Shown: one piece after another, positions 36,646-39,997 of the stretch
Layout: every line of letters starts with the position of its first letter
Position numbering within the stretch: position 1 is the first letter of the stretch
NCBI RefSeq assembly: GCF_001956855.1
Contig: NZ_MTHD01000001.1
Span: 62,001 to 126,000, forward strand
Length of the DNA: 64,000 nucleotides
DNA from: Azonexus hydrophilus
GTDB taxonomy: Bacteria > Pseudomonadota > Gammaproteobacteria > Burkholderiales > Rhodocyclaceae
Reading direction: 5' to 3'
Translations under genes and position numbers: made by a program
The notes under the pieces: generated by a model
Databases searched by the model: none
Told to the model about the DNA's origin: nothing
Seen by the model: the letters and a program-made list of their open reading frames with translations, nothing else

Positions 36646-37713
36646 GTGAGCCGACCCAAGAACGATACCTTCCTGCGTGCACTGCTGAAGGAACCGACCG
36701 AATACACCCCGCTCTGGCTGATGCGCCAGGCTGGCCGCTACCTGCCCGAGTACTGCGAGACGCGCAAGCGTGCCGGCAACTTCCTGAACCTGTGCAAGTC
36801 GCCGGCGATGGCCTGCGAAGTGACGCTGCAGCCGCTGGCCCGCTACGATCTCGACGCCGCGATCCTGTTTTCCGACATCCTGACCGTGCCGGATGCAATG
36901 GGTCTCGGCCTGTACTTCGCCGAAGGCGAAGGCCCGAAATTCGAACGGCCGTTGCGCGAGGAATGGGCGATCAACAACCTGACCGCGCCGGACCCCTACG
37001 AGCACCTCGGCTACGTCATGGACGCCGTGTCGGAAATCCGTCGCGCGCTCGACAATTCGGTACCGCTGATCGGCTTCTCCGGCAGCCCGTACACGCTTGC
37101 CTGCTACATGGTCGAAGGCCAGGGCTCGTCCGACTTCCGCCATATCAAGGGTATGATGTACAGCCGTCCGGACCTGCTGCACAAGATCCTGTCGGTGACT
37201 GCCGATTCGGTGACCAGCTACCTGAACGCCCAGATCGACTCCGGCGCCCAGGCGGTGATGATTTTCGACACCTGGGGTGGCTCGCTGTCGGCCGCGGCTT
37301 ACCAGGAATTCTCGCTGGCCTACATGCAGCGTATCGTCGCCGGCCTGAAGAAGGACAAGGACGGCCAGCGCATTCCGTGCATCGTGTTCACCAAGAATGG
37401 TGGCCTGTGGCTGGAGAAGATCGCCGACATCGGTTGCGATGCGGTTGGCCTCGACTGGACCATCGACATCGGCGAAGCCCGTCGACGCGTTGGCGACAAG
37501 GTGGCACTGCAGGGCAACATCGATCCGAACGTGCTGTTCGGCACGCCGGAAATCATTGCCGCGGAAACGAAGAAGGTGCTCGACAGCTTCGGTCCGGGCA
37601 ATACCGGCCATGTCTTCAATCTGGGCCACGGCATTTCCCAGTACACGCCGCCGGAAAACGTCACGGCGCTGGTCGAAACGGTGCATGCGCACAGCCGTCT
37701 GCTACGTAAGTAA
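36646..37713 (+). CDS. hemE: Uroporphyrinogen decarboxylase
   Basis: 355 residues. Removes four carboxyl groups from uroporphyrinogen III to give coproporphyrinogen III in haem synthesis. Signature segments are [15 protein letters not shown] at the N-terminus (substrate-binding Arg), [16 protein letters not shown], and FNLGHGI near the end. The start is GTG, with GGAG twelve bases upstream. The gene reads into the DnaA-box spacer ahead of priA. Confidence 0.97.
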
Positions 37714-37725
37714 GGACTCAGCAAC

Positions 37726-37766
37726 CGGGGAATGGAAGCGACTTATGCACAGAATTCCATTCCCCG
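37726..37766. repeat. 12-bp inverted repeat enclosing a DnaA box
   Basis: CGGGGAATGGAA (37726-37737) and TTCCATTCCCCG (37755-37766) are perfect complements with a 17-base loop that contains TTATGCACA. There is no U tract on either side, so it is a poor terminator for hemE despite starting 13 bases after the stop. Confidence 0.75.
37743..37751 (+). promoter_or_regulatory. DnaA box, perfect (TTATGCACA)
   Basis: Matches TTATNCACA exactly; located in the loop of the 12-bp hairpin. Confidence 0.7.
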
Positions 37767-37799
37767 CAGGAAAAAAATCCTGAAACCGGCTTGACACAG

Positions 37800-37808
37800 T
37801 GTGCATTA
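37800..37808 (-). promoter_or_regulatory. DnaA box, one mismatch (TAATGCACA)
   Basis: Read on the minus strand, one base from TTATNCACA, at the edge of the most AT-rich stretch. Confidence 0.45.
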
Positions 37809-37919
37809 TTCAAGTTGTTGATTTAAAAAGAATTAATGTTTTGCCCAATATTTCGGCAAGATAACAAAACCCTTACAAAACGCCGACTTAGCATTTCTTT
37901 ACCTCGGCAATCCACAAAG

Positions 37920-37928
37920 TTATCCACA
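37920..37928 (+). promoter_or_regulatory. DnaA box, perfect (TTATCCACA)
   Basis: Exact strong-box consensus, 87 bp before the priA start. A two-mismatch copy (CAATCCACA, 37908-37916) lies just upstream in the same orientation. Confidence 0.75.
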
Positions 37929-37933
37929 GCTTT

Positions 37934-37942
37934 TGTGGACAA
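37934..37942 (-). promoter_or_regulatory. DnaA box, one mismatch (TTGTCCACA)
   Basis: Minus-strand copy five bases after the perfect box at 37920, giving an inverted pair. Confidence 0.5.
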
Positions 37943-38014
37943 GTGAAAACTGTGGCCCGATGCTGTTTTTCCGGGCCGGCAGCGGGATAAAAGCCCCGAC
38001 TTTCCGGATCATTC

Positions 38015-39997
38015 ATGCCCGTCCTGCGCGTCGCCCTCGATCTGCCCCTGCATCGCCTGTTCGAATATCGGGCTGAAGCGGCGTCGACCGCAGATGTCGG
38101 CTTGCGCGTGCGCGTGCCGTTCGGGCGTGGTGAGCGCATCGGCGTCATTGTCGCGGTCGTCGACCAGGGCGACTGGCCGGATGCCCAACTGAAACCGGCT
38201 GGGGAAATCCTGCGCGACCATGCGCCCCTGCCGGACGACTTCTTCGCGCTGTGCGAATTCGCCAGCAACTACTATCAGGCGCCTTTTGGCGAAGTCGTGC
38301 TGCAGGCCCTGCCGGCCGGCATGAAACGCGTCGATCCGCCGACGCGGCGGGCGGGCAGGGCGGTCAAGGTCCGCCCCGCGGGTGTGTTGCCCGAGCTGAC
38401 AGCGGAGCAGACTGTGGCCATCGACAGTGTTGCGGTCGACGGTGGTTTTTCGGCGCAATTGCTGTTCGGTGTCACCGGCAGTGGCAAGACCGAGGTCTAT
38501 CTGCGGCTGGTCGAGCGGACGCTGGCGCTGGGCGGCCAGGTGCTGTTGCTGGTGCCGGAAATCAATCTGACGCCGCAACTGGAAGAGCGCGTGCGCAGCC
38601 GTTTTCCCGAACGCACCGTCGTTTCGCTGCACAGCGAATTGGCCGAAGCGGCGCGCGAGCGCAACTGGCGCAGCGCCTTTGCCGGCGAGGCCGAGATCAT
38701 TCTCGGCACCCGCCTGTCGATCTTCACGCCCTTGCCGCGTCTCGGCCTGATCATCGTCGACGAGGAACACGATGCCTCGTTCAAGCAGCAGGACGGCATG
38801 CGCTACTCGGCACGCGACGTTGCCGTGGTGCGCGCCCGTCAGCTATCGATCCCGATCCTGCTCGGTTCGGCGACGCCATCGCTGGAAAGCTGGGCCAATG
38901 CCCAGGGCGGGCGCTACGGGCTGCAGACGCTGAAGGAACGCGCCAATCCGGAAGCGCAACTGCCGACCGTGCACATCATCGATACTCGCCGCGCAACCCT
39001 GCGCGAGGGCGTCAGTCCGCCGCTGGTGGCGGCGATCCGGGAGCGCCTGGCGCGCGAGGAACAGAGCCTGGTCTTCCTCAACCGTCGTGGCTACGCGCCG
39101 GTGCTGGCCTGTCCGGCCTGCGGCTGGGTCTCGCAGTGCCAGCGTTGCGCCGCCAACCTGGTGCTGCATCTGGCCGACCGGCGGTTGCGCTGTCACCACT
39201 GCGGTTTCGAGAACGGCATCCCGAAAGCCTGCCCGACCTGCGGCAACCAGGACATCCATCCCTACGGCCGGGGCACGCAACGTGTCGAGGAATGGTTGCA
39301 GGCGGAATTCCCCGAGGCCCGCATCCTGCGCGTCGACCGCGATTCGGTGAAGAGCCGCAAGCAGTGGGAAAGCATGCTCGAACGCATCCACGGCGGCGAG
39401 GCCGATATCCTCGTCGGTACCCAGATGCTGGCCAAGGGCCACGATTTTCCCAAGCTGACACTGGTCGGCGTGCTCGGCGCCGACGCCGCGCTCTATGCCG
39501 CCGACTGGCGTGCCCCGGAGCGCTTGTTCGCGCAGTTGATGCAGGTCGCCGGTCGCGCCGGTCGGGCCGAACTGAAGGGCGAGGTGCTGGTGCAGACGCA
39601 GTATCCCGACCATCCGCTGTTCGCCGCGCTGGCCAGCCACGACTACACCGGTTTCGCCGCCGCCCAGTTGAAGGAGCGTGAGCAGGCCGGTTTCCCGCCG
39701 TATGCCTTTCAGGCGATCTTGCGCGCCGAGGCGCCGGCGATGGCCGAAGCCGTCGCCTTCCTCGATCAGGCGCTGGCCTTGCCGGCCGTGAAGGAACACG
39801 AGCAGGTCATGCTCTACGATCCGGTGCCGATGAAAATGGCCCGCCTGGCCAACCTCGAACGTGCCCAACTGCTCGCCGAATCCTATTCACGACCGGCCTT
39901 GCAGGCCTTCCTGCCGCGCTGGCGGGAAGCCATCGCCGGCCTCAAGGCTTCGTCTAAGCTGCGCTGGCACATCGAGGTCGATCCGCTCGAGTTGTGA
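38015..39997 (+). CDS. priA: Primosomal replication restart helicase PriA
   Basis: 660 residues. A 3'-to-5' superfamily 2 helicase that reassembles replisomes at forks. N-terminal 3'-DNA-end-binding domain (about 1-100), Walker A GVTGSGKTEVYL near 152, DEEH box (IIVDEEHDASFK), then the paired zinc-binding cysteines typical of PriA (ACPACGWVSQCQRC, CHHCGF, CPTCG) inserted in the helicase, and motif VI MQVAGRAGRA. It lies directly beside the DnaA-box spacer. Confidence 0.97.
   Translation: MPVLRVALDLPLHRLFEYRAEAASTADVGLRVRVPFGRGERIGVIVAVVDQGDWPDAQLKPAGEILRDHAPLPDDFFALCEFASNYYQAPFGEVVLQALPAGMKRVDPPTRRAGRAVKVRPAGVLPELTAEQTVAIDSVAVDGGFSAQLLFGVTGSGKTEVYLRLVERTLALGGQVLLLVPEINLTPQLEERVRSRFPERTVVSLHSELAEAARERNWRSAFAGEAEIILGTRLSIFTPLPRLGLIIVDEEHDASFKQQDGMRYSARDVAVVRARQLSIPILLGSATPSLESWANAQGGRYGLQTLKERANPEAQLPTVHIIDTRRATLREGVSPPLVAAIRERLAREEQSLVFLNRRGYAPVLACPACGWVSQCQRCAANLVLHLADRRLRCHHCGFENGIPKACPTCGNQDIHPYGRGTQRVEEWLQAEFPEARILRVDRDSVKSRKQWESMLERIHGGEADILVGTQMLAKGHDFPKLTLVGVLGADAALYAADWRAPERLFAQLMQVAGRAGRAELKGEVLVQTQYPDHPLFAALASHDYTGFAAAQLKEREQAGFPPYAFQAILRAEAPAMAEAVAFLDQALALPAVKEHEQVMLYDPVPMKMARLANLERAQLLAESYSRPALQAFLPRWREAIAGLKASSKLRWHIEVDPLEL
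38430..38440 (+). repeat. Dispersed word TTGCGGTCGAC, copy 4
   Basis: In priA just before Walker A, read as V-A-V-D. Confidence 0.6.

Follow-up and report, generated by a model that had tools for sequence, protein, structure and literature searches.

The reactivation of DnaA has been dissected in E. coli, where DARS2 requires Fis. At both DARS1 and DARS2 the core boxes are 14 and 12 bp apart, and one box is opposite to the other two. As described in part of a review (PMC5742627), boxes I-III are spaced alike at the two sites, box I is opposite to boxes II and III, and DnaA molecules on boxes I and II meet head to head, with release of ADP; DARS2 needs IHF. According to part of another report (PMC4245941), IBS1-2 of DARS2 are 3 bp apart, and a DARS2 whose IBS had been shifted away from the core by 10 bp still had a moderate effect in vitro. 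The two IHF matches that we found beside the DARS2 core lie 3 bp apart as well. DARS-like sequences in many proteobacteria are already in print (partial text of PMC10380432). The core-IBS-FBS spacing of DARS2 is conserved in E. coli-proximal beta- or gammaproteobacteria (a passage of PMC5742627), and DARS2 homologues are described for seven E. coli-proximal species (an extract of PMC8682772). Here we compare these sites with an intergenic region of Azonexus hydrophilus which, judged by its sequence geometry, fairly probably contains a DnaA-reactivating site of the DARS type and, within that type, of the DARS2 kind.

The window that was analysed comprises 64,000 nucleotides (G000:C9:62001-126000). 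Between hemE (uroporphyrinogen decarboxylase, 36646..37713, +) and priA (primosomal helicase, 38015..39997, +) it contains a 301-bp spacer (37714-38014, at 99.7 kb on the contig) with a GC content of 45%, compared to 60-69% in 2-kb windows. Both neighbours had been named in an earlier note on this DNA and were confirmed by Pfam; hemE shares up to 94% identity with Dechloromonas and Azonexus records. Perfect DnaA boxes (TTATNCACA) are present at 37743(+) and 37920(+) and one-mismatch boxes at 37800(-) and 37934(-), exactly where the earlier note had placed them in this AT-rich spacer. Over the whole window DnaA boxes are not in excess (12 vs 11.5 expected), and four of them lie within 200 bp in the spacer. 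Dinucleotide shuffling of the 301-bp spacer (n = 2000) gave a mean of 0.23 boxes, and none of the shuffles reached four one-mismatch boxes or two perfect ones.

The whole predicted DnaA-IHF element, which is DARS2-like, spans 37737..37953(+). Box A (TTATGCACA, 37743..37751, +) is located 68 bp, start to start, before an IHF site (AATCAACAACTTG, exact WATCAANNNNTTR; 37811..37823, -). The IHF motif is conserved in relatives, and an AT-rich tract follows it on the + strand and reaches about 37838. The IHF site is 97 bp away from a weak box B (CAATCCACA, two mismatches; 37908..37916, +), which precedes box C (TTATCCACA, 37920..37928, +) by 12 bp. Box D (TTGTCCACA, 37934..37942, -) follows 14 bp after box C in the opposite orientation. 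Boxes B, C and D correspond to DARS boxes III, II and I, respectively. While the previously listed boxes at 37743, 37920 and 37934 are conserved, the one at 37800..37808(-) recurs at the corresponding position, with no more than one mismatch, in 2 of 50 relatives and is probably incidental. The weak box at 37908(+) and the IHF site at 37811(-), both conserved, were absent from the earlier description.

Box A lies in the loop of a 12-bp inverted repeat (37726..37766, +; arms 37726-37737 and 37755-37766), whose arms covary in near relatives. Explicit pair counting in the hemE-proximal spacers of near relatives revealed 75.9% paired cells vs 67.2% after shuffling. At least 8 pairs were formed in 14 of 52 loci, vs 1.4% of shuffles. 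RNAalifold predicted no pairs around box A in the near-relative alignment. The repeat is possibly the end of the hemE mRNA, where it would shield the element from transcription. A structured RNA was considered and rejected; the region 37400-38300 has no Rfam match at E up to 1.

Conservation was analysed in genome sets that we term order and class (presumably Burkholderiales and Gammaproteobacteria in the GTDB sense, judging by named hemE relatives). The element precedes priA in many families, though not always. Among 80 hemE loci, 65 have priA downstream. Boxes A and C are present in 64 of 66 hemE-priA spacers (window included) and are 174-180 bp apart in 60 of these 64; the exceptions among the 66 are L083, whose 81-bp spacer contains no boxes, and L076, in which A and C are 49 bp apart. 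In hemE-priA spacers hemE and box A are 1-971 bp apart, and box C and the priA start, as estimated, 42-382 bp; with both distances so variable, the element keeps its own frame. Where priA does not follow hemE (n = 15), the element was found once (L117), and two of the other loci end within 0.5 kb of hemE. Of the 399 order genomes, 189 contain a TTATNCACA-N160..172-TTATCCACA pattern and none contains the reversed control. We then picked 99 non-redundant elements on A, C and IHF only, ignoring B and D. Box B is present in these at -12(+) within 2 mismatches in 89 cases and box D at +14(-) in 68; more than two mismatches were counted for box B in 10 and for box D in 31. Boxes at other offsets reach at most about 4%, save +13(+) (35%), which overlaps D. 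The IHF site is 95-98 bp from box B in 91 of the 99 elements.

A sequence-only model, R1, was built from 66 relatives and included no E. coli sequence. Its match in the window covers 37739-37949 and scores 117.6 bits. With a threshold of E up to 1e-5, hits were obtained in 393 of 399 order genomes and in 318 of 369 class genomes, only 4 of the 318 being within the order; these E-values and counts rest on a shortened calibration plus filters, and part of the hits may represent DnaA-box clusters of another kind. The strict box-IHF-box pattern was detected in 9 of 369 class genomes (8 outside the order; reversed control 0), and hence the class-wide claim rests on the R1 model. At class level the best loci were inspected (L326-L354, n = 29). 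Of these, 16 have priA downstream, and some others are located by gspC, hslO, a citrate synthase gene or further genes. Where box A is good (27 loci), A and C are 187-191 bp apart in 23, about a helical turn more than in the order, and IHF and box B are 97-100 bp apart in 24 of 29, figures that are flattered by picking positions for the best total fit.

The arrangement B(+)-12-C(+)-14-D(-), read on the other strand, is that of DARS1, (+)14(-)12(-), and of the DARS2 core. The spacings of 12 and 14 bp are those of both E. coli sites, and the orientations agree, with D on the minus strand and C and B on the plus strand. As in DARS2, the IHF site is on the box-III side and in the same orientation, at 97 bp vs 87 bp in E. 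coli. Further support for this likeness is provided by R1, which was applied to 220 kb of E. coli sequence with the known sites included. DARS1 scored 31.3 bits (E 1.7e-8) and the DARS2 core plus IBS 28.1 bits (E 1.7e-7), while datA reached 16.1 bits, oriC 13.4 bits and the top match in 200 kb of other sequence 10.7 bits; the E. coli priA region gave no match. The alignment of R1 to DARS2 contains one gap of 10 nt, i.e. one turn, between IBS and core. The one-turn differences in spacing, between the groups as well as relative to DARS2, fit a need for helical phase. Besides the known core, R1 matched a second DARS-like stretch within the E. coli DARS2 region (L289:1944-2099, regulatory part; 22.4 bits). 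A scan for the exact Fis consensus, in which weaker sites may escape, found none in 37700-38020, so that counterparts of the DARS2 Fis sites FBS2-3 were not seen. We therefore claim the element as DARS-type and DARS2-like, not as DARS2. The suggestion of the earlier note that the spacer is a DnaA control site is supported by a conserved DnaA-IHF element whose core has the geometry seen in E. coli DARS.

By analogy with E. coli DARS2, DnaA would bind the head-to-head pair C/D (boxes II/I) and the adjoining box B (III). IHF would bend the DNA on the box-III side and thereby bring the core near to a DnaA molecule on box A, which is 165 bp away from B. In this complex ADP-DnaA would lose its ADP and could then reload ATP and fire oriC. 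An additional DnaA might be provided by box A from beyond the IHF site. Genes for IhfA and IhfB are present, both over curated cut-offs, and the oriC that reactivated DnaA would fire probably lies at dnaA, 46 kb away. The binding of DnaA and IHF, the release of ADP, the role of box A and the independence of Fis are what we infer from the sequence. The element is free-standing, since strong copies are also found at metG and xseA. Several findings count against a DARS-type element: 31 of the 99 elements lack box D and 10 lack box B, the distance between IHF site and core exceeds that of E. coli DARS2 by 10 bp, the scan gave no exact Fis consensus although DARS2 needs Fis, and box A is not a DARS feature, the A-IHF-B distances (68/97) being close to those of datA (65/97). 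The frequent adjacency of priA, moreover, hints at a priA-related role.

Besides the hemE-priA element, R1 has two strong matches in the same genome, one by metG (C12:62008-62233, L311; 78.1 bits) and one, without box A, by xseA (C14:11213-11379, L312; 75.1 bits). The next-best match (C13:232913-233017, L313; 28.3 bits) covers only B-C-D. Four congeners (G029, G031, G034 and G253) have three elements each, at about +33-43 kb, +0.51-0.67 Mb and +0.82-1.02 Mb from dnaA. The first of these sits with hemE and priA, and the second and third with metG and xseA in G029, G034 and G253. A fourth, weaker match is present in G034 (57.6 bits) and G253 (38.1 bits). G346 and G257 have one strong match apiece. 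Clusters were observed as well: two elements just upstream of priA in G042 (C1:5094440-5095125, L325) and three within 5.4 kb in G363 (C6:402307-407722). At two loci of family f31 (L169, L170) the element follows what we take, from its sequence, to be a comM/yifB (Mg-chelatase-like) gene. As regards a possible mobile repeat, the copies have motifs and spacing in common, not the whole sequence.

With low probability, the element acts like datA. IHF would then loop box A onto the same-direction boxes B and C, promoting the hydrolysis of DnaA-bound ATP and damping re-initiation. The order in datA, box 2(+)-65-IBS(-)-97-box 3(+)-12-box 4(-), resembles A(+)-68-IHF(-)-97-B(+)-12-C(+) in the window, with a single IHF site between same-direction boxes; extracts of reviews ascribe to minimal datA one IBS, same-direction essential boxes and a spacing that is important. 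Like datA, the site is near the origin in its own genome, and the DARS-specific part, box D, is missing in nearly a third of the elements. However, the R1 match to datA is partial, covering the box pair, with only 4.8 bits at the IBS, and both values are below those of DARS1 and DARS2. The essential low-affinity box 7, 12 bp before box 2 in datA, has no counterpart before box A in the window or in the alignment. The presence of box D at +14(-) in 68 of 99 elements, where unrelated offsets do not exceed about 4%, likewise speaks against datA. The 65/97 spacing had made datA the leading reading, and it was placed below DARS after the core geometry and the R1 comparison. Some room for a datA-like action is left because A, B, C and the IHF site fit the datA spacing and box D is often missing. 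An improbable explanation is that the spacer is a DnaA/IHF-controlled promoter region of priA, or of a hemE-priA transcript, tying the supply of the restart primosome to the DnaA cycle. It would account for priA within 1.5 kb at 24 of 30 order-level and 16 of 29 class-level loci and for the absence of the element from 14 of the 15 hemE loci that lack priA. Yet the distance to priA varies widely, the sole strong match in G346 and in G257 follows a TatD-family gene, copies of the same architecture are found at metG, xseA and other genes, and no sigma-70-like promoter was detected in 37600-38100. A function as priA promoter only was considered and is weakened by these copies and the variable distance. 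A passive titration site, without catalytic effect on DnaA, is very improbable: several DnaA boxes close to the origin would suit it, and DnaA titration is reported for E. coli (part of PMC12371093), but it leaves the conserved spacing, orientation and IHF site unexplained.

The earlier note had also proposed that the spacer is the chromosomal oriC, which we regard as hardly credible. The DnaA-box cluster and AT-rich DNA would fit an origin, the earlier note points to a hemE-linked oriC in Caulobacter and Rickettsia, and GC skew is near zero around the spacer (90-120 kb of the contig). However, dnaA is located on the same contig 46 kb to the left (C9:52921-54276), with DnaA boxes on both its sides. 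In 5-kb bins, every value between 10 and 40 kb is below zero; skew is then near zero over 40-60 kb, reaches +0.10 to +0.11 at 60-70 kb and is above zero in 3 of the 4 bins up to 90 kb. The cumulative minimum falls into the 35-40 kb bin, and the flat stretch that follows to 60 kb includes dnaA. The lasting sign change at 40-60 kb is at dnaA and not at the spacer, to the left of which skew takes no lasting negative turn. Of the two outcomes that the earlier note had named as speaking against an origin, a skew pointing to dnaA was indeed observed, while the other, boxes unconserved in relatives, was not. The three parS-like sites it had reported are present (21179, 27519 and 42212, about 4-17 kb off); the genome has 14 distinct ones, all on this contig between 2 and 204 kb, and hence they mark the origin region at large and not the spacer. 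An oriC is expected once per chromosome, whereas three strong copies of the element exist in this genome, and R1 gives E. coli oriC only the low score mentioned above. In G346 and G257, single contigs that start at dnaA, skew changes from negative to positive across dnaA, and the element is mid-replichore: at 1.874 Mb of 2.60 Mb in G346 (L310; 0.73 Mb from dnaA, second skew switch near 1.2-1.3 Mb) and at 0.488 Mb of 1.28 Mb in G257 (L309; 0.49 Mb from dnaA, second switch near 0.67 Mb). Since these two are not at priA, they demonstrate that an element of this architecture is not necessarily an origin, but they do not tell the position of the priA-linked one. In the single-contig genomes G240 and G185 the priA-linked element is far from dnaA (0.27 Mb in G185), with weak skew in both. 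The hemE-priA spacer is thus very probably not oriC. The DnaA-box region around dnaA is possibly the real one. The dnaA-dnaN spacer (C9:54308-54463, L029) contains DnaA boxes and shares a TTCAAGTTGTTGA stretch with the hemE-priA element, and weak R1 matches (26-27 bits) were observed just upstream of dnaA in G031 and G029.

In the literature searched we found no compact element with a box A or at hemE-priA, and nothing relevant on DnaA boxes with priA or on DARS in Betaproteobacteria. Compared to known DARS, the extra box A, the lack of an exact Fis consensus, the frequent linkage to priA and the class-wide spread appear to be new, although the data of Fujimitsu 2009, which is cited for the conservation of DARS, may already include part of this. 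If real, the element provides a motif that can be recognised in almost every genome sampled from the order and in most of those from the class, and the timing of initiation becomes testable far outside enterics. More tentatively, and with the odds rather against it, the element might be an ancestral, class-wide, Fis-independent DnaA-reactivating site of beta-/gammaproteobacteria, from which DARS1 and DARS2 of E. coli would descend as derived and relocated forms. Such a site would combine box A, an IHF bend and a DARS core, with helical phasing kept and often at priA, and in some lineages there would be additional copies whose distance from dnaA is kept. The common linkage to priA would then place DnaA recharging and replication restart at one locus.

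Among the known systems, a bacterial oriC shares DnaA boxes and AT-rich DNA with the hemE-priA element but differs in that the latter is off the skew switch and has several copies per genome. E. coli datA (glyVXY-queG) is similar in its one IHF site between same-direction boxes at nearly the same distances; its box 7 is without equivalent here, it has no B-C-D arrangement and its R1 score is weak. DARS1 (bioD-uvrB), the best E. coli match of R1, has an identical core geometry and TTATCCACA as its middle box, but lacks an IHF site within one mismatch in the stretch scanned. DARS2 (upstream of mutH) is 455 bp long compared to about 200 bp here. The hemE-priA element differs from it in the position of the IHF site one helical turn further out, in the missing exact Fis consensus and in a fixed box A, which has no counterpart in the E. 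coli DARS core. The two have in common an intergenic location, a three-box core with 14/12 spacing and the same orientations, and IHF on the box-III side.
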